Shown: positions 5,529 through 15,158 of the stretch, piece by piece
Layout: each line of letters begins with the position of its first letter
Position numbering within the stretch: position 1 is the first letter of the stretch
Source: Candidatus Zixiibacteriota bacterium
GTDB taxonomy: Bacteria; SM23-81
Direction: 5' to 3'
Assembly: GCA_030628225.1 (NCBI GenBank)
Contig: DAOVRJ010000028.1
Span: forward strand, 1 to 15,158
DNA: 15,158 bases
The notes under the pieces: model-generated
Databases searched by the model: none
What the model was told of the DNA's origin: nothing
Seen by the model: only the letters and a program-made list of their open reading frames with translations
Made by a program: the position numbers and the translations under genes

Positions 5529-7058
5529 ATGCTACGTGTCCTGAGAGCCAGAAAGTTTCTGCCCTTTCTGGCGTTGCTTTTTTTGTTTTCGCGATGTTCT
5601 GATGTGCAGGGGATCAAAGAACGATACTTGATTGAAAAGATGTTCTATCGAGCGAACAAACTATATCAGAACATTCAGATAACTCCTCGCAGCATCAGTC
5701 CAGCCAGCTACCAGCAGGTTAGAGAGTCTTTTCGTCAGATTCTGGTCAAGTACCCCGTGGCCTCCCTGCAGGCAGAAGGTCATTTCTCGGAAGAGATGCG
5801 TCGCGAACTGCTGGTTTTGATTGGCACAAGCCAGATGAATGTTGCCGATCTTTTTTTCCAAGAGGGCCAGATTGATTCTGCCATCGTCGAGTATCAAAAG
5901 GTTATCGCTGATTACGCCGGCAACCGAGCTTTAGGCTCGCGAGCCCAGTATTACATCGCTTTGGGTTACCAGAGTTTGGGCAGATGGGAGGATGCCGTCT
6001 CTGGTTTCGAGGTTTTGCTGCAGGATTATACACCCTTCGTGGAGACGCCCGAACAGCCCGATGTGAACATTTTGCAAGTGCCTGCATCCATCGCCCAGGC
6101 CTATCGGCTTCGGGGGGAACAGGCTGAGGCCGACCGCTATTATGAGAAAGCCCGGGAATATCTCTGGGGAGTGGTGAGGAAATGGCCTCACACGTTCACC
6201 GCCCAGTTTGCCCAAAACCAAATCGTGGCCACCTATCTTGGCCAAGAGCGTTGGCAGGAAGCCATAGCGAACCTGGAGACTCTGCTGGCGGTTCACTCGG
6301 ACTCCTTAGAGCCATCTGAGGCTTCTTTAACTATCGCAGCCCTTTACGAAGAAAAGCTCCATGAATCGAGCAAGGCTATGGAGATTTATTCCAGCGTCGT
6401 GAAGGAATATCCCGATTCGAAGAGACTGAGCCGTGTTCATCTGGCTATGGGCAATATCCACCTGCAGCGCGGAGAGCTGACTAAATCGCGGGAGGAATTC
6501 AACAGGGTAATCATCGATTTTCCAGAGGATGCGGCCGCTGGAGCCCGTGCTCAGTACTCCATTGCCCTTGCCTGCGAGATGGAAGGGGAGTGGGACAAAG
6601 CCCTGAATGAGTTCCGATGGATTATGGAAAACTACCCCGATTCCCCGGAAGCTTTCCAGGTGCCCGATCACATTCTGGAACACTACTTGCAATTCTCAGA
6701 GGAAGAGCTGGCTGCCAGTGCCTATACACAGGCCTTGAAGGATTATGCTAAGTTCATTGCCAAGGATCCCAATTCTGCTCAGGCGGTCCTCGGGCAATGG
6801 TACATCACCCGGTGTCATATAAGGATGGAAAAGTGGAGCGAGGCCCTCGCTGCCCTGGAAACTTTTGTGGTGAACTATCCCCAGAGCCCTCAGGTGCAAC
6901 TGGCCCTCCTGAGGATCGGAGAAATTTATGAAATCAACCAGAATCAGCCCGCCGAGGCCCTGGGAGCCTATCAACGACTAGTTGAGAAATTCCCTCGCGG
7001 CCAGCCGTCCCAGATTGCCCTTCAGCGGATAGAGATCCTGAAGCAGAAAGTGGAATGA
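5529..7058 (+). CDS. TPR-repeat envelope protein, PrsT-like by position
   Basis: ATG 5529 is chosen because AGAAGGG lies 7 bases upstream and the protein then begins with a signal peptide (MLRVLRARKFLPFLALLFLFSRC). A TTG at 5472 in the same frame has no site and adds 19 unlikely residues. Cys23 is a possible lipid-attachment residue, but Arg at -1 is not consensus, so processing could be by signal peptidase I or the leader may remain as an anchor. The rest (509 residues) is helical with about nine TPR-like units, for example LFFQEGQIDSAIVEYQKVIA, LGRWEDAVSGFEVLLQDY, MEGEWDKALNEFRWIMENYP and MEKWSEALAALETFVVNYP. Its stop overlaps the kinase ATG by four bases, implying translational coupling. 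In exosortase/PEP-CTERM loci a TPR lipoprotein (PrsT) often accompanies PrsK and PrsR; this one is shorter than the PrsT I know (about 900 residues), so homology is only suggested. Confidence 0.85.
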   Translation: MLRVLRARKFLPFLALLFLFSRCSDVQGIKERYLIEKMFYRANKLYQNIQITPRSISPASYQQVRESFRQILVKYPVASLQAEGHFSEEMRRELLVLIGTSQMNVADLFFQEGQIDSAIVEYQKVIADYAGNRALGSRAQYYIALGYQSLGRWEDAVSGFEVLLQDYTPFVETPEQPDVNILQVPASIAQAYRLRGEQAEADRYYEKAREYLWGVVRKWPHTFTAQFAQNQIVATYLGQERWQEAIANLETLLAVHSDSLEPSEASLTIAALYEEKLHESSKAMEIYSSVVKEYPDSKRLSRVHLAMGNIHLQRGELTKSREEFNRVIIDFPEDAAAGARAQYSIALACEMEGEWDKALNEFRWIMENYPDSPEAFQVPDHILEHYLQFSEEELAASAYTQALKDYAKFIAKDPNSAQAVLGQWYITRCHIRMEKWSEALAALETFVVNYPQSPQVQLALLRIGEIYEINQNQPAEALGAYQRLVEKFPRGQPSQIALQRIEILKQKVE

Positions 7059-9211
7059 ATTCTTTCGTCCTACTCCCTTTGGCCAATATTCTAATGGCCC
7101 TCCTCCTGTTAGCGGTGGTTATGCGGAGGAATCCAAAGGCGCTTCTCAGCAGGGCCTTTGGATTAGGAGTCCTCTGCATCGCGGTTATCGAATTTGGTCA
7201 CTTCATGTCCCTGGTGGTTTCCGGTGGAGACCGTGTCCTGTTCTGGTTCAAATTCGCTCTAGCCGGGACTTGTTTTCTCCCCGTTACCTGGTCCCTGTTC
7301 AGCTTCCTGTTGCTTCAGCCCGATCCCAAGGCTATCATTCAAAAACGGCTGGGATATTTCCTCCTCCTGCTGATAGCGGGCATTGGCTTTCTGGCCTTAA
7401 TACCCTCGAATCGCTTGATTTATATCCTCCCGGAGGCGAGATCTCTCTGGTTGGGAGCGATGCGTTTTGGAATGCTGGGCCGCTGGTTTCTCATCTATCT
7501 TCTCCTCTCTGTGGTCATCATGCTCGTTTTCCTGGAGAACACCTACCGCAACACACACCAGAGAGGAGGACGCTATGCCCTCTACGGGCTCATAGGAAGC
7601 CTTTTCTACGCCATCTTTTTGTTCAGTCAGGGCTTGCTGTATTCTCGAATTCCGTCAGCGGTTTTTCTTGTGGGTTCGGCTGTCATCTTTGCGGCGGGAT
7701 TGTTCTTTGCATACGACATCGTCCGCTACCAACTGCTTCAGGTGGACATTTACGTGGGCAGAGGAGCCGTCTACTCCTCGGTGATTTTGCTGCTTGTGGG
7801 AGCTTATCTCATTCTCATGGGGTTAGTGGGCAAGCTGGTCAGGGTTATGGGCGGCAATCTGAATCTGTTGTTCACTATTCTAGCCGCCTTAGTGATGTTC
7901 TTTCTGCTTTTAGCTCTGCTGGTTTCAGGGTCGTTGAAGAAAAGGCTTAAGTCTTTTATCGACAGGAACTTCTATAGAGGAAGATATGATTATCGTGAGC
8001 AGTGGCTTCGGTTTAGCGAGGAGATGTCCAGCCTGTTGAGTTTGCAGGAGCTTCTGCCCAGGTTTCTGCATATGGTTATGGAAACTCTGGATGTGCACAA
8101 GGCCGGCATTTTATTGCCCGGAGGCTCCCAGGGAGATTTTCTGCAGGCCGAGGCTGAGGACCTTCCTGATGAGGAGCTCTGTATCCCTGAAAAGAGCGAG
8201 TTTTTGGACTGGCTATTCGTCTTGGGCAAGCCTGTTCTATTAGAAGACAGCCGATTTAACGAGAACATAGCGCAGCAGGTTTTGTTTCAGCGAAATCGCC
8301 TTCAAAACCTCGGGCTGGTCGCATTGGTTCCTTTGATCACCAAGAGAAAGCTGGTGGGTTTGTTGGTTCTTGGATCAGCAGCCTCTGGAGATTCCTTCTC
8401 CAGTGTGGACATGGAGCTTCTGGAAACTATTGGCAATCATCTCTCCATGGCCATCTTGAACGCCAAGCTGAGCGAAGAGTTGGTCTTGTCTAAGGAGCTG
8501 GAGTTCATCCACAAGATCTCCTCCTTTGTTGTACACGATCTGAAGAATTTGATTTCCACTTTATCTATGATGCTTCAGAACGCCGCTGACAACATGGATA
8601 AACCCGAGTTTCGAGAAAACATGCTGGTCACTATCAGCGGGACTGTTGAGAAGATAAAGGGCTTGATGAATAAAATCACAACTATGCCTACGGATTTTCA
8701 ACTGGACTTTCAGCCACAGGGCCTGAACAGCATCATTAAAGAGATTGTCTCCAAGATCAAGATAGACCAGATGGCGCACATTCAATATGTGGAGGATCTT
8801 CGCCCCCTGCCTGATACCAGCGTGGACCGGGAATATGTGGAGCGTATTCTGATGAATCTTGTCGTCAACGCATTGGAGGCTATGCACCAGGAGGGTACCC
8901 TGCGAATATCGACACGGTTTGTGGAAGATGGAACAGAGCTGCCAGCCGACGAGAAAAGTGCTGGAAGGGCCTCGAAATTAGTGGAGATTGAAGTGGCCGA
9001 TTCGGGAGCGGGAATGAGTAAGGAGTTCATCAAACACAGGCTCTTCAAGCTTTTTCAAACCACAAAGAAAAAAGGTCTGGGCATCGGCCTCTACCAATGC
9101 AAGGAGGCTGTGGAGGCTCATGGGGGCAGTATTGAGGTGAAAAGCAGAGAGGGTGAGGGCACCGTTTTTATGGTCCGATTACCCATTGTCCATTCAATAA
9201 TTGACCTCTAA
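7055..9211 (+). CDS. prsK: PrsK-like membrane sensor histidine kinase
   Basis: 718 residues. The N-terminal 290 or so residues hold seven to eight membrane segments. A juxtamembrane stretch with LKKRLKSFIDRNFYRGRYDYREQW follows, then a GAF-like domain at about 335-475 (VHKAGILLPGG, then LVPLITKRKLVGLLVLGS). The kinase core has the phosphoacceptor His494 in FVVHDLKNLISTLS, the N box Asn605 (NLVVNALEAM), the G1 box Asp649 (VADSGAGMS) and the G2 box near 674 (KKGLGIGLY). The HDLKN box with an LS.ML.NA continuation, the multi-helix N-terminus and the GAF domain are the architecture of the PEP-CTERM system kinase PrsK. All catalytic residues expected of an active kinase are present. It is translationally coupled to the TPR gene (ATGA overlap) and lies 18 bases before its probable partner. 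The signal is unknown. Family membership is strongly suggested; the exact symbol is less sure. Confidence 0.88.
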   Translation: MNSFVLLPLANILMALLLLAVVMRRNPKALLSRAFGLGVLCIAVIEFGHFMSLVVSGGDRVLFWFKFALAGTCFLPVTWSLFSFLLLQPDPKAIIQKRLGYFLLLLIAGIGFLALIPSNRLIYILPEARSLWLGAMRFGMLGRWFLIYLLLSVVIMLVFLENTYRNTHQRGGRYALYGLIGSLFYAIFLFSQGLLYSRIPSAVFLVGSAVIFAAGLFFAYDIVRYQLLQVDIYVGRGAVYSSVILLLVGAYLILMGLVGKLVRVMGGNLNLLFTILAALVMFFLLLALLVSGSLKKRLKSFIDRNFYRGRYDYREQWLRFSEEMSSLLSLQELLPRFLHMVMETLDVHKAGILLPGGSQGDFLQAEAEDLPDEELCIPEKSEFLDWLFVLGKPVLLEDSRFNENIAQQVLFQRNRLQNLGLVALVPLITKRKLVGLLVLGSAASGDSFSSVDMELLETIGNHLSMAILNAKLSEELVLSKELEFIHKISSFVVHDLKNLISTLSMMLQNAADNMDKPEFRENMLVTISGTVEKIKGLMNKITTMPTDFQLDFQPQGLNSIIKEIVSKIKIDQMAHIQYVEDLRPLPDTSVDREYVERILMNLVVNALEAMHQEGTLRISTRFVEDGTELPADEKSAGRASKLVEIEVADSGAGMSKEFIKHRLFKLFQTTKKKGLGIGLYQCKEAVEAHGGSIEVKSREGEGTVFMVRLPIVHSIIDL

Positions 9212-9229: not shown

Positions 9230-10597
9230 ATGAAAATAAAGAAGGGCAGAGTTCTTGTTGTTGACGATGACCAGGGGATCCGCGACCAGTTGATGTGGGC
9301 CCTGAAAGACAGTTACGAGGTGCTCTTGGCTGAGGACGGTCCCTCAGCTATGGAGATAATCCGGGAGCAAAAACCTCAAGTTATTGCTCTGGATATCAGT
9401 CTTTCCCCCTTTGCGCAGAATGAAGAGGGTTTTGAGGTGCTCCGCAAGATCATGGAACTCGATCCCAAGTCGAAGGTGATCATGATCACGGGCAACGAGA
9501 CCAAACACCTGGCCCTGAAGGCCATTAAGATGGGGGCCTATGATTATTTCACCAAACCCATTGATCTCCAGGAAATAAAGGTTATTATCAACCGGGCTAT
9601 TTATATTGGGAAGCTGGAGCAAGAAAACGAGCTCCTTTTAGAGAAGTTACAGGCGGAGCGCAGGTTTCACGATATTATCGGTAGCTGCCCTCAGATGATG
9701 AAAGTTTTCGATATCATCGGTCGAGTGGCCACTACCAATGCTACGGTCCTCATCTATGGACAAAGTGGGACGGGCAAAGAGTTGGTGGCCAAGGCCATTC
9801 ATCGACAGAGTCTACGGAAGGGAAAGTCTTTTATGCCCATCAACTGCGGAGCGATCCCGGAGAACCTGCTGGAGAGCGAGCTTTTTGGCTACGAGAAGGG
9901 CGCGTTTACCGGGGCAGTGGGGCGCCGGAAGGGTAAGTTTGAATTGGCCAATGGGGGGACCATTTTTCTGGACGAGATTGCCGAGCTCAGCCTGGCCCTG
10001 CAGGTGAAAATCCTGCGGTTTTTGCAAGAGAGGGAGATTGAGCGAGTGGGTGGGCGGGAGGCTATTGAGTTAGATGTGCGCATTCTTGCCGCCACCAATA
10101 AGGATCTGCAGCAGGCGATGGAAAAGGGCGTTTTCCGCGAGGACCTGTTTTATCGCTTAAGCGTGGTTTCCATTGCTCTGCCTACTCTGCGAGAGCGAGG
10201 TGACGACATCACACTGTTGGCAAACTCATTCCTCAACCAGTATAATAAGGAATACGGAAAAAACATCAAAGCCTTCAGTGCCGGGGCTCTTCAAGAGTTG
10301 CAGACTTACGAATGGCCGGGCAACGTGCGGGAGCTGGAGAACAAGGTGAAACGAGCCGTGATTATGACCAGAAGCAATCTGGTGACCCCCGAGGATCTGG
10401 ACCTGCAACTTTCGGAGAAGAGTGGGAAATTGACTTTGCGGCAGGCCAAAGACAGGTTAGAGAAGAAGCTTATCCGGGAGGCACTCATTAAAAATCGAGC
10501 GAATATCTCTCGATCAGCCCGGGAGCTGGATGTAAGCCGGGCCACTTTGTACGATATGCTGGAAAAACATCAAATCGGCAAGGAAGATTTCTCTTAA
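9230..10597 (+). CDS. prsR: PrsR-like sigma-54-dependent response regulator
   Basis: 455 residues in three parts. Receiver, about 5-125: DDD near 13-15, phosphoacceptor Asp55 (IALDISLSP), Thr87 and Lys109 (FTKPID); after Asp55 there is a longer loop (SLSPFAQNEEGFEVL) than in typical receivers, a trait I associate with PrsR. AAA+ domain, about 145-385: Walker A GQSGTGKE at 177-184, the sigma-54 contact loop GAFTGA at 224-229, Walker B TIFLDE with Asp248/Glu249, and the arginine-finger region FREDLFYRLSV. C-terminal Fis-type helix-turn-helix, about 420-450 (NISRSARELDVSRATLYDML). All parts needed for phosphorylation-dependent activation of sigma-54 RNA polymerase are intact. AGGAGGGG touches the ATG, a short but workable spacing. 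Two sigma-54 promoters in the next 2.4 kb are the obvious candidate targets. Confidence 0.93.
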   Translation: MKIKKGRVLVVDDDQGIRDQLMWALKDSYEVLLAEDGPSAMEIIREQKPQVIALDISLSPFAQNEEGFEVLRKIMELDPKSKVIMITGNETKHLALKAIKMGAYDYFTKPIDLQEIKVIINRAIYIGKLEQENELLLEKLQAERRFHDIIGSCPQMMKVFDIIGRVATTNATVLIYGQSGTGKELVAKAIHRQSLRKGKSFMPINCGAIPENLLESELFGYEKGAFTGAVGRRKGKFELANGGTIFLDEIAELSLALQVKILRFLQEREIERVGGREAIELDVRILAATNKDLQQAMEKGVFREDLFYRLSVVSIALPTLRERGDDITLLANSFLNQYNKEYGKNIKAFSAGALQELQTYEWPGNVRELENKVKRAVIMTRSNLVTPEDLDLQLSEKSGKLTLRQAKDRLEKKLIREALIKNRANISRSARELDVSRATLYDMLEKHQIGKEDFS

Positions 10598-10819
10598 CGG
10601 TTCTTGTCGGATTCTTATACAGGTAATAACAGTCAATAGTCAAGCGTGTTATCAGAAATGACTCCTTTGAGTCTGTCGAGATTTTTGACACTTTTTTCCC
10701 ACAAAGAGGTTTTTAGGGATACAGAGCTGAGGATTGATGGGCAAGTTCATCAAGATAGATTTTTGTATTGTCGGGTGTTAGCCGGAAAAGCGTTTTGTAA
10801 AAACCTTTCCCCTAAGAAG
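10598..10819 (+). promoter_or_regulatory. Probable activator-binding region upstream of the sigma-54 promoter
   Basis: AT-rich, non-coding stretch between the activator gene and its neighbouring sigma-54 promoter; I see no convincing gene. It holds a 6-base inverted repeat ATAACA (10626-10631) / TGTTAT (10647-10652), two copies of TTGTCGG (10604-10610 and 10768-10774), and a TGTC/GACA pair around 10674-10690. Any of these could be PrsR sites; enhancer proteins usually bind 80-200 bases upstream. No terminator follows the activator gene, so read-through into the next gene is possible. Confidence 0.4.
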
Positions 10820-10836
10820 TTGGCATAGAGTTTGCC
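10820..10836 (+). promoter_or_regulatory. Sigma-54 (-24/-12) promoter
   Basis: The sequence TTGGCATAGAGTTTGCC fits the sigma-54 pattern TTGGCACG-N4-TTGCW. The invariant GG is at 10822-10823 and GC at 10834-10835, with exactly 10 bases between them. Mismatches fall only at weakly conserved places (TA for CG, final C). Transcription would begin about 12 bases after the GC, near 10847, and run into the degenerate GGDEF gene at 10986. The gene just upstream encodes a sigma-54 activator. Confidence 0.8.
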
Positions 10837-10941
10837 GAATAAATTTTGGGGGTTTTTACCTAAATTGTCAGCAGCGGATGATCTCCCTGCGAAGCGAAGA
10901 AAGTAATTTACCTCCACATTTCTCGATCTGCCTTGTTCTTG

Positions 10942-10977
10942 GGAGGAAGGGATGCTTTTCCTCCAGGATGGAGGTGA
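10942..10977 (+). promoter_or_regulatory. Leader RNA with mutually exclusive hairpins over the Shine-Dalgarno sequence
   Basis: GGAGGAA (10942-10948) pairs perfectly with TTCCTCC (10958-10964, 9-base loop). The same CCTCC (10960-10964) also pairs perfectly with GGAGG (10970-10974, 5-base loop), the core of the ideal ribosome binding site GGAGGTGA (10970-10977) that lies 8 bases before ATG 10986. Only one stem can form at a time: the first frees the binding site, the second hides it. This is the layout of an on/off translational switch; whether it switches is untested, and purine-rich sites next to pyrimidine runs can arise by chance. Confidence 0.45.
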
Positions 10978-10985
10978 GTTTTTAG

Positions 10986-11585
10986 ATGGAGCGTGAGGGG
11001 TTGCCAATGGAGTTATCCGGGGATAGCAGTCAGGAGTTCGCGGTGGAACTCGGTAAAGTGAAGTTGAAAAACGAGGTCTTGAGACAGCGAATCGCCTTCT
11101 TGGAGAAGATGACCGAATTCGACGAGGCAACACATTTTCTTTCTCAGAGTTACTTTGAGAGAAGATTTACTCAGGAGCTACGCAGAGCCGAGCGTTACTG
11201 TGAGTTTTTATCTCTGGTTTTACTTGATACCAGCTCTGTACTGTCAGGACAGAGTTCTAAGATGAAGGTTAAGGTGCTCGAAGGCTTGGGCAATCTCATT
11301 GGAGACACTATCCGGGCGACGGACATTCTTACGTCCCTGGGCAAAGGCCGCCTGGTTTTACTTCTTACCGAGACACCTAAGGAGGGCGCTTTGCGCCTGG
11401 CGAAACGGCTGAGCGAGAAAATCGCCAGGACCACATTGCCAGAAGAGTTGAAATTATTAAAAGATGGGGTTGTTAACATCGGCATCGCCTCCTTTCCTGA
11501 GGATGGGGGTGATCGGGAGGACCTCCTTCAGGTGGCCAGTTCACCTCTGAATAGCGAATTGTCTGTTATGCCGAGCATTGACTGA
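10986..11585 (+). CDS. Degenerate GGDEF-domain protein, predicted c-di-GMP effector
   Basis: 199 residues, cytoplasmic. ATG 10986 is 8 bases after a perfect GGAGGTGA. A short coiled coil at about 15-42 (VELGKVKLKNEVLRQRIAFL) leads into a GGDEF fold. DEATHFLSQSYFERRF replaces the usual D.LTGL.NRR.F, and RAERY...FLSLVLLD keeps the strand-1 pattern. The active-site loop GG(D/E)EF is GKGRL (119-123), so cyclase activity is not expected. The inhibitory-site motif RxxD is kept as RATD (110-113) at exactly the canonical spacing from that loop, which suggests c-di-GMP binding without synthesis. The tail (GIASFPEDGGDREDLL) matches the end of the domain, but the protein stops soon after; no output domain is attached. 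It is likely driven by the sigma-54 promoter at 10820 and closed by the terminator at 11632, hence a one-gene unit. Confidence 0.85.
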   Translation: MEREGLPMELSGDSSQEFAVELGKVKLKNEVLRQRIAFLEKMTEFDEATHFLSQSYFERRFTQELRRAERYCEFLSLVLLDTSSVLSGQSSKMKVKVLEGLGNLIGDTIRATDILTSLGKGRLVLLLTETPKEGALRLAKRLSEKIARTTLPEELKLLKDGVVNIGIASFPEDGGDREDLLQVASSPLNSELSVMPSID

Positions 11586-11631: not shown

Positions 11632-11659
11632 AAAAGGGGAAAACACTCCCCCTTTTTTT
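11632..11659 (+). terminator. Rho-independent terminator
   Basis: AAAAGGGG (11632-11639) pairs with CCCCTTTT (11649-11656) across a 9-base loop, and the T-run goes on to 11659 (seven T in all). It lies 46 bases after the degenerate GGDEF gene and isolates it from the lipid kinase downstream. Confidence 0.9.
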
Positions 11660-13120: not shown

Positions 13121-13490
13121 GAAATAAACGCATCCGGTGTATCACATCAGGGGATAAGTTTCGTTTTTTCTAACCGTTCGAGAAGGAGGAGCCTAGAGAA
13201 AAAGGTTCGCTAACGGGTTTGGGAAAATACAATCGACATCCTTAGAAGAGTTCCTTTTCTTGCTTCATTTAGCCGGGACTAACAAGGATGATGAACAGCG
13301 ACCGTCGGAATGAGGACCTCACCCCGCCATTGGCTTTTTCTCCTCCGGAGAGCAAGGCGTAGATTTTGGGGGATGATGGTGTGGTGAGACCAAGGCTCCG
13401 GCGGTATTTTATTTGCTCTTTCCGGGCTCACAAAGCGAGTACCAGAGCGCGGAGGATGATCTAGGATCTCAAGAAGATGGAGAAGCGAAT
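13121..13490 (+). other. Long untranslated leader before the C25-type gene
   Basis: About 365 bases with no supported gene. A strong ribosome-binding-like AAGGAGGA at 13183-13190 has no start codon at a usable distance, which is odd. TCTCC/GGAGA (13339-13343 / 13347-13351) forms a tight hairpin, and CCGGAG/CTCCGG copies recur near 13346 and 13396. I checked by eye for riboswitch cores (GEMM c-di-GMP, cobalamin) and saw none. A short reading frame 13288-13362 lacks a proper ribosome binding site. Confidence 0.35.
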
Positions 13491-15158
13491 ATGAGATGGA
13501 AAGGGGATAGCCGTGGACACACGGCCCTGTTGATGATTTTTGCTCTGTGTGGTCTATTTTCTCTCTCTTTTGCAGAGCCTTCCCAGTTTGCTTCAGACTA
13601 TGAAGGGCAGCGGTCGGCACGAGTTCATCGACCGTTGACAGACACCATTAGGGACACAGGGGTTTCTACGGCGGTACGTCTGGTTCGCTCCGATGATAGA
13701 GGAGCGGAGATTGAGATCATTAGCCGGGGATTCGATTCTTCCGCGGAGGAGATAGAGGGGCAAATCTATCATCATCTCAGTCTTGATGGTGCCTCCCTCA
13801 GCCAGGAGGAGGGTGAACCTCAACTGCCCTTAAGGGTCATGATGTTGGGCATCCCCCTGGAAGCGAACGTTGCTGTGGAGGTGGTGGAGGTAGAGACGGA
13901 GCGAAGTTTTAATTACCATGTGTATCCGGCTCCCAGGCGAGTGCTCTCCCGGACCAAATCTGGTGAACCTTTTACCACTACTGAGTTTTACCGCAACGAT
14001 CCTCTGTACAGCCAAAACACCTTCTTTCCGCCACGAATAGCTAAAGTGACCCAGATCGCTTTTATCAGAGATCAGCGGGTGGCTCAATTGGAGGTGTGCC
14101 CCTTGCAATACAACCCGGCCAGCGGAGAATTGCTGTTTCACAAGCGTCTCATTCTGCGAGTGACCTTCGGTAGCGGTTCCCAGGTAGATCTTGCCGGATT
14201 TGAGGAGCCGAGTTTCATCCCCACAGACGTGGGTCCTTTCCAGTCCATTCTGAAGAACACCCTGCTCAACTACGAGTCCTCGAGGCACTGGCAACAGCGC
14301 CGCGCCGCTCTGCCAAAGTTCATGCCAGTGGAAACTGAAACGCCCTATGGGGATTCCACAGCATATAGGATCACCGTCACAGAAGATGGCATCTACTCCC
14401 TGAGCTATGAGTATCTGCAGAGTCAGGGAGTGGCTGTCTCGGCCATCGATCCCAAAACGGTGAAGATGTATAATCGGGGAGAACAAATCCCCATCTATGT
14501 TTACGGAGCTCGAGACAACCAATTTGATCCGGGGGATTACATCCAGTTCAGGGGTGAAGTGTACCACGGGGAGAATCACTACTACTCCCCTTACACAGAG
14601 ACCAATGTCTATTGGCTGGTCTCCGGCGGCGACATCGGCATGAGGATGGTAGAGCAGGATGGCGGGCTGGTGGTGGAAGATCCGGACAGCCTGATCATTC
14701 CCCTCAGCTACAAGGCCACCTTGCACGTGGAAAGAGATCTGAGCTATCAGCGCCTGTCTCAAATGAGAGACGAGAGCATAGACCGGTGGCTAATGGACGA
14801 AATCAACGCAGATACCACTCGAGACTACTCCTTTTACCTGACGGCCGTCGATGACAGCGACAGCGCCAAGTGCGAGATAGAAATCAGGCTGCGGGGCATT
14901 ACCTTTCCCTACCACGATCCTGACCACCACACCAAAATCTGGCTGAATGGCAACAAGCTGGACGAGGCCTGGTGGGATGGTCAGGACGAATATATCTACC
15001 ACCGGACCGGGCTGCCCAACTCCTGGCTGTGGGAGGGAAACAACCTGTTGCGCATCGCCAATATTGGGGACACAGAGGCCGGAGACGTTGATAAGATCTA
15101 CACAAACTGGTTTCAGATCGACTACTGGCGGGGATACGTGGCTCAGGATGACTACTTG
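13491..15158 (+). CDS. Secreted C25 (gingipain-type) propeptide protein, 3' end outside window
   Basis: The frame is open without a stop from ATG 13491 to the last base: 556 codons, the gene continuing beyond the window. GGAG lies at 13479-13482, 8 bases upstream. The protein starts with a signal peptide (basic MRWKGDSRGHT, then ALLMIFALCGLFSLSFA; cleavage likely after SFA). Residues about 100-240 match the gingipain-type propeptide pattern: EGEPQLPLRVMMLGIPLEANV, NDPLYSQNTFFPP, then QLEVCPLQYNPASGELLFHKRLILRVTF. From about 290 a beta-rich portion (YRITVTEDGIYSLSYEYLQSQGV, KMYNRGEQIPIYVYGARDNQFDPGDYIQF) follows, as in C25 proteins of FCB lineages. The catalytic His/Cys region is not in view, so peptidase activity cannot be judged; a non-peptidase surface protein with the same front half is possible. 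It lies behind tandem sigma-54 and sigma-70 promoters. Confidence 0.88.
   Translation, partial: MRWKGDSRGHTALLMIFALCGLFSLSFAEPSQFASDYEGQRSARVHRPLTDTIRDTGVSTAVRLVRSDDRGAEIEIISRGFDSSAEEIEGQIYHHLSLDGASLSQEEGEPQLPLRVMMLGIPLEANVAVEVVEVETERSFNYHVYPAPRRVLSRTKSGEPFTTTEFYRNDPLYSQNTFFPPRIAKVTQIAFIRDQRVAQLEVCPLQYNPASGELLFHKRLILRVTFGSGSQVDLAGFEEPSFIPTDVGPFQSILKNTLLNYESSRHWQQRRAALPKFMPVETETPYGDSTAYRITVTEDGIYSLSYEYLQSQGVAVSAIDPKTVKMYNRGEQIPIYVYGARDNQFDPGDYIQFRGEVYHGENHYYSPYTETNVYWLVSGGDIGMRMVEQDGGLVVEDPDSLIIPLSYKATLHVERDLSYQRLSQMRDESIDRWLMDEINADTTRDYSFYLTAVDDSDSAKCEIEIRLRGITFPYHDPDHHTKIWLNGNKLDEAWWDGQDEYIYHRTGLPNSWLWEGNNLLRIANIGDTEAGDVDKIYTNWFQIDYWRGYVAQDDYL

Follow-up and report, generated by a model that had tools for sequence, protein, structure and literature searches.

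The window, by which we mean the whole 15,158-nt stretch of DNA that was analysed, starts at or within a sugar transferase gene, the upstream region of which falls outside it, and includes genes for the kinase PrsK, the response regulator PrsR and a small protein with a degenerate GGDEF domain. The features on which the analysis turns are as follows.

7055–9211, forward strand: PrsK, a membrane histidine kinase with a GAF domain (TIGR02916, 396 bits against a cut-off of 300)
9230–10597, forward strand: PrsR, a sigma-54 response regulator (TIGR02915, 580 bits against a cut-off of 502.6; GAFTGA)
10605–10621, forward strand: distal predicted PrsR box, TGTCGGATTCTTATACA, 17 bp (best box match in the window; 94% conserved in the same-family genome G001)
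10674–10690, forward strand: proximal predicted PrsR box, TGTCGAGATTTTTGACA, 17 bp (second-best box match; part of the joint pattern described below)
10820–10836, forward strand: predicted sigma-54 type -24/-12 promoter, TTGGCATAGAGTTTGCC (sequence, genome pattern, matrix score and conservation in G001)
10846–10848, forward strand: expected transcription start (from the -12 element and general sigma-54 spacing)
11007–11585, forward strand: degenerate GGDEF-domain protein, 192 amino acids (Pfam GGDEF, 5e-13; alignments; predicted fold)
11636–11658, forward strand: terminator-like hairpin and T run (scan of the window)

We compared this genome with three others of its phylum, one from the same family (G001) and two from a sister family (G002 and G003). 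An earlier note on this DNA had placed a sigma-54 promoter in a true intergenic gap beside an activator gene with intact GAFTGA, and both statements hold: the motif was found in PrsR, whose stop is at 10597, and a gap of 409 bases separates prsR from the GGDEF-like gene. The latter most likely begins at ATG 11007, which has GAGGGG in front of it; a start at 10986 is less likely because G001 keeps this start context, GAGGGG and ATG alike. The hairpin and T run at 11636–11658 suggest that the gene forms a single-gene unit. An antisense open reading frame at 10750–11133 was rejected as a gene, its likeness to a G001 frame being gapped and largely opposite coding sequence. The gap matched no Rfam family, c-di-GMP riboswitches included, up to E = 1. 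Within the expected 5' leader, 29 bases at 10877–10905 (GATGATCTCCCTGCGAAGCGAAGAAAGT), likewise free of Rfam matches, are conserved between the two genera about as well as the promoter. Further downstream, a long open frame that leaves the window (13413–15158) has a similar frame in G001 and presumably encodes a C25-type peptidase precursor.

The predicted promoter has GG at 10822–10823, ten bases, and GC at 10834–10835, with TGGCA and TTTGC both present, so the earlier reading of exact invariant bases and spacing was correct. A bare GG-N10-GC is worthless as evidence on its own, occurring 141 times in the window against 136 expected, which is about chance. With a matrix built only from PEP-CTERM promoters of these genomes, TTGGCATAGAGTTTGCC is the top-scoring position on both strands of the window; its score corresponds to ~3e-6 per position, and an equal score appears in 9% of random windows. 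The stricter pattern YTGGCAYN4TTTGC occurs seven times in the whole 2.34-Mb genome, compared with once for the reversed control, and the genome carries rpoN (Sigma54_DBD, 206 bits). At the same place in G001 lies TTGGCACAGTGTTTGCC, and the promoter is 88–91% conserved between the two genomes against a gap average of 53%, which makes it one of the gap's two most conserved blocks. On this comparative evidence we regard the predicted promoter as genuine. Its -24 element lies 187 bases from the start codon, a distance that is shorter at most PEP-CTERM genes.

Both exosortase and PEP-CTERM proteins were found in the window's genome, and across the four genomes of the phylum most PEP-CTERM genes have boxes and a -24/-12 site upstream. 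The PrsR scheme is not followed by all of them: two (G000:C278 and G001:C70; L098 and L099) have the -24/-12 site without a recognisable box, and at a third (G000:C44) a sigma-70-like promoter takes its place. G001 and G003, both ~90% complete assemblies, yielded no exosortase, despite their PEP-CTERM proteins and PrsK/PrsR.

The two boxes in the window follow TGTCGR-N8-ACA, end in TATACA and TTGACA, and start 146 (proximal) and 215 (distal) bases upstream of the -24 element, with a spacer to the -24 motif of ~129 nt. The box matrix was trained on PEP-CTERM genes alone; the window had been seen beforehand, so the ranking of its boxes is not fully blind, and the box definition is not fully independent, the boxes having been noticed partly in the window first. 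A dyad search restricted to PEP-CTERM upstream regions, with the window excluded, gave TTGG-N9-TGC (9/12) and GTCG-N9-ACA (8/12) as top dyads against 6–8 in shuffles, so that the box dyad merely ties with the best shuffle. Genome-wide, the box alone is also near its control (six matches versus three). Specificity lies only in the joint pattern of box and promoter, which has three matches in the 2.34-Mb genome and none in the reversed control. These are PEP-CTERM genes at C47 and C169 and the degenerate GGDEF gene, which share a box-pair spacing of 66–69 and a distance from proximal box to promoter of 136–147 (145 in G001). Both boxes are carried by G001, the proximal one at 65% identity, within what its surroundings can give. 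Among the sigma-54-like sites inspected, boxes were confined to those of PEP-CTERM genes and of the GGDEF-like gene, joined later by that of one G002 gene. Because the joint pattern matches just two PEP-CTERM genes besides it, the GGDEF-like gene is very probably a member of the PrsR regulon alongside PEP-CTERM genes. Its proposed role as a direct PrsR target is well supported by the shared paired boxes, conservation and joint pattern. The accompanying suggestion of a link beyond PEP-CTERM proteins stands in part: the predicted target is not a PEP-CTERM gene, but the same promoter type precedes PEP-CTERM genes, so it would join their regulon. A further candidate PrsR target is a non-PEP-CTERM gene for a small predicted membrane protein in G002 (L175; G002:C75:87909-88077), whose upstream region holds a box pair with a spacing of 64 bases and a -24/-12 site.

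Gene order from a TPR gene through prsK and prsR to the GGDEF-like gene is kept in all three other genomes, and PrsR exceeds its family cut-off in all four. The promoter element, which the earlier note expected at homologous loci, was recovered in the same family only; its absence from the sister family is explained by a different layout. There the GGDEF-like gene follows prsR by ~25 (G002) and ~160 (G003) bases and lacks its own promoter, and boxes and promoters sit before the following genes, which are PEP-CTERM genes (the G003 promoter, at 7233, has a non-standard -12). A -24/-12-like site also precedes the sugar transferase gene that heads the row (TTGGCATAGACTTTGC in L053 of G001, CTGGCATAGACCTTGC in L055 of G002), and the entire row from sugar transferase through prsKR may be sigma-54 dependent.

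The 192-residue protein is predicted to adopt a GGDEF fold (model pLDDT 77.6), and its PDB matches are GGDEF domains. Its GG(D/E)EF active-site motif is replaced by LGKGRL, and GGDEF is present in none of the eight aligned relatives, which makes c-di-GMP synthesis unlikely. RxxD is kept as RATD, with R103 and D106 among seven columns invariant in all eight sequences, suggesting a c-di-GMP receptor; degenerate GGDEF proteins with RxxD can act in this way (PMC10333796). Because the genome also encodes GGDEF proteins with the motif intact, the cell can be expected to contain c-di-GMP. The protein is most likely a regulator or c-di-GMP receptor, and we put the receptor reading taken by itself at slightly below an even chance. 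The link to c-di-GMP signalling proposed earlier stays hypothetical, with a single feature in its favour, possible binding through the kept RxxD; the lost GGDEF motif speaks against synthesis.

An activator gene, a -24/-12 site and a degenerate GGDEF gene recur in this arrangement in three other lineages (G012, G090 and G268); the G012 and G090 proteins were chosen by small size alone, and that of G268 was found by profile. A second profile search added three more genomes of the G268 family, all three with the full layout, a site matching [AG]TGGCATTTANTTTGC and a degenerate GGDEF with RDTD. In all seven genomes first examined, the gene for such a protein directly follows an activator gene, and a -24/-12 site stands right before the gene in 8 of the 11 genomes that have it behind an activator; in G060, activators precede a degenerate GGDEF gene with no such site. 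As a rough control, given that intact GGDEF proteins are mostly longer, none of 44 intact loci has an activator directly upstream. The activators of G268, G012 and G090 score below the PrsR cut-off, so the pairing extends beyond PrsR. Near PrsR relatives of other phyla, no related GGDEF-like gene was found at 15 of 16 loci, the remaining one (L051) having one distant GGDEF-like match (1e-7). We tentatively suggest, as a possibility that we consider rather unlikely to hold in full, that small degenerate GGDEF proteins with an intact RxxD constitute a family, so far unrecognised, dedicated to partnering NtrC-type sigma-54 activators in several phyla. They would be made from an activator-adjacent sigma-54 promoter and, gated by c-di-GMP, feed back on that activator or on its kinase, and the PrsK/PrsR case would tie this loop to PEP-CTERM surface proteins.

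We propose, with a probability of roughly 0.8, that the degenerate GGDEF gene is expressed from a PrsR-dependent sigma-54 promoter with two boxes and is co-regulated with PEP-CTERM genes. In this model, PrsK would phosphorylate PrsR, which would bind the two TGTCGR-N8-ACA boxes 146 and 215 bases upstream of -24 and, via looping, reach sigma-54 RNA polymerase at 10820–10836. Transcription of the single-gene unit would begin near 10847, and PEP-CTERM genes elsewhere with the same boxes and promoter would be switched on together with it. The protein would make no c-di-GMP by the usual chemistry and could tune a surface-protein or exopolysaccharide programme or feed back on PrsK/PrsR; what it does is the least certain part of the model.

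The principal alternative, that a real sigma-54 promoter is served by another activator and lies near prsR incidentally, is improbable but deserves the most weight. Other activators probably exist, since further sigma-54-like sites of the genome stand without boxes before unrelated genes, and outside this phylum the gene's neighbouring activator is one other than PrsR; against this, boxes and geometry here match those of PEP-CTERM genes, and the adjacency of activator and gene in every genome first examined does not look incidental. Clearly less probable is transcription of the GGDEF-like gene mainly by read-through from the prsKR operon, with the promoter left over from a PEP-CTERM gene since lost. 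The sister-family layout is what such a history might leave, but two genera share the promoter, the start context and a conserved stretch of the leader, and the site is kept right before the gene in most of the genomes with this arrangement.

Least probable of all is that the inverted repeat at 10820–10838 (TTGGCA-N7-TGCCGA) is a terminator or operator that resembles a promoter by chance. The scan did pick out this position as weakly terminator-like, and G001 has a perfect copy of the repeat; the terminator version was rejected because no T run follows the repeat in that genome. The repeat is also absent from PEP-CTERM promoters of the same class, and the joint pattern makes a chance resemblance unlikely. 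PrsR-dependent expression together with PEP-CTERM genes thus remains our preferred reading. It would extend the PrsK/PrsR box and sigma-54 architecture to another phylum and name a non-PEP-CTERM target adjacent to its regulator. Should the protein bind c-di-GMP, a direct path would join c-di-GMP and the exosortase programme; the pairing of activators with degenerate GGDEF proteins in unrelated lineages also offers a small, testable family. No PrsR/c-di-GMP pairing is described in the titles and abstract openings surveyed; one paper, PMC7726332, contains all the terms.

Haft et al. (2006) described proteobacterial PEP-CTERM genes with a 17-nt activator box before a sigma-54 motif, found the motifs only in Proteobacteria and already mentioned a few sites before other genes (PMC1569441). 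As in that regulon, a 17-nt box, sometimes repeated, lies here upstream of -24/-12 at single-gene units, and PrsK, PrsR, exosortase and sugar transferase are all there; the phylum differs, as does the presence of a degenerate GGDEF gene among the predicted targets. The proteobacterial box ends in TTTACA, unlike TGTCGG-N8-ACA, and the proximal-box spacer is ~120–130 here against an average of 63 there (PMC1569441). Since PEP-CTERM genes of the phylum depart from the TTTACA ending and ~63-nt spacer likewise, we take the predicted architecture as a variant form of the proteobacterial one. In Aquincola tertiaricarbonis, pepA has a mapped RpoN-dependent -24/-12 promoter with a predicted enhancer upstream, which resembles the arrangement predicted here; its target is a PEP-CTERM gene, and PrsR dependence was not demonstrated (PMC9850573). 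Like the degenerate GGDEF receptors PelD and PopA, the protein described here has lost the GGDEF motif and kept RxxD (PMC10333796). Unlike them, it is a stand-alone domain of ~160–215 amino acids without GAF, receiver or membrane part, its c-di-GMP binding is putative, and it is linked to a sigma-54 activator.
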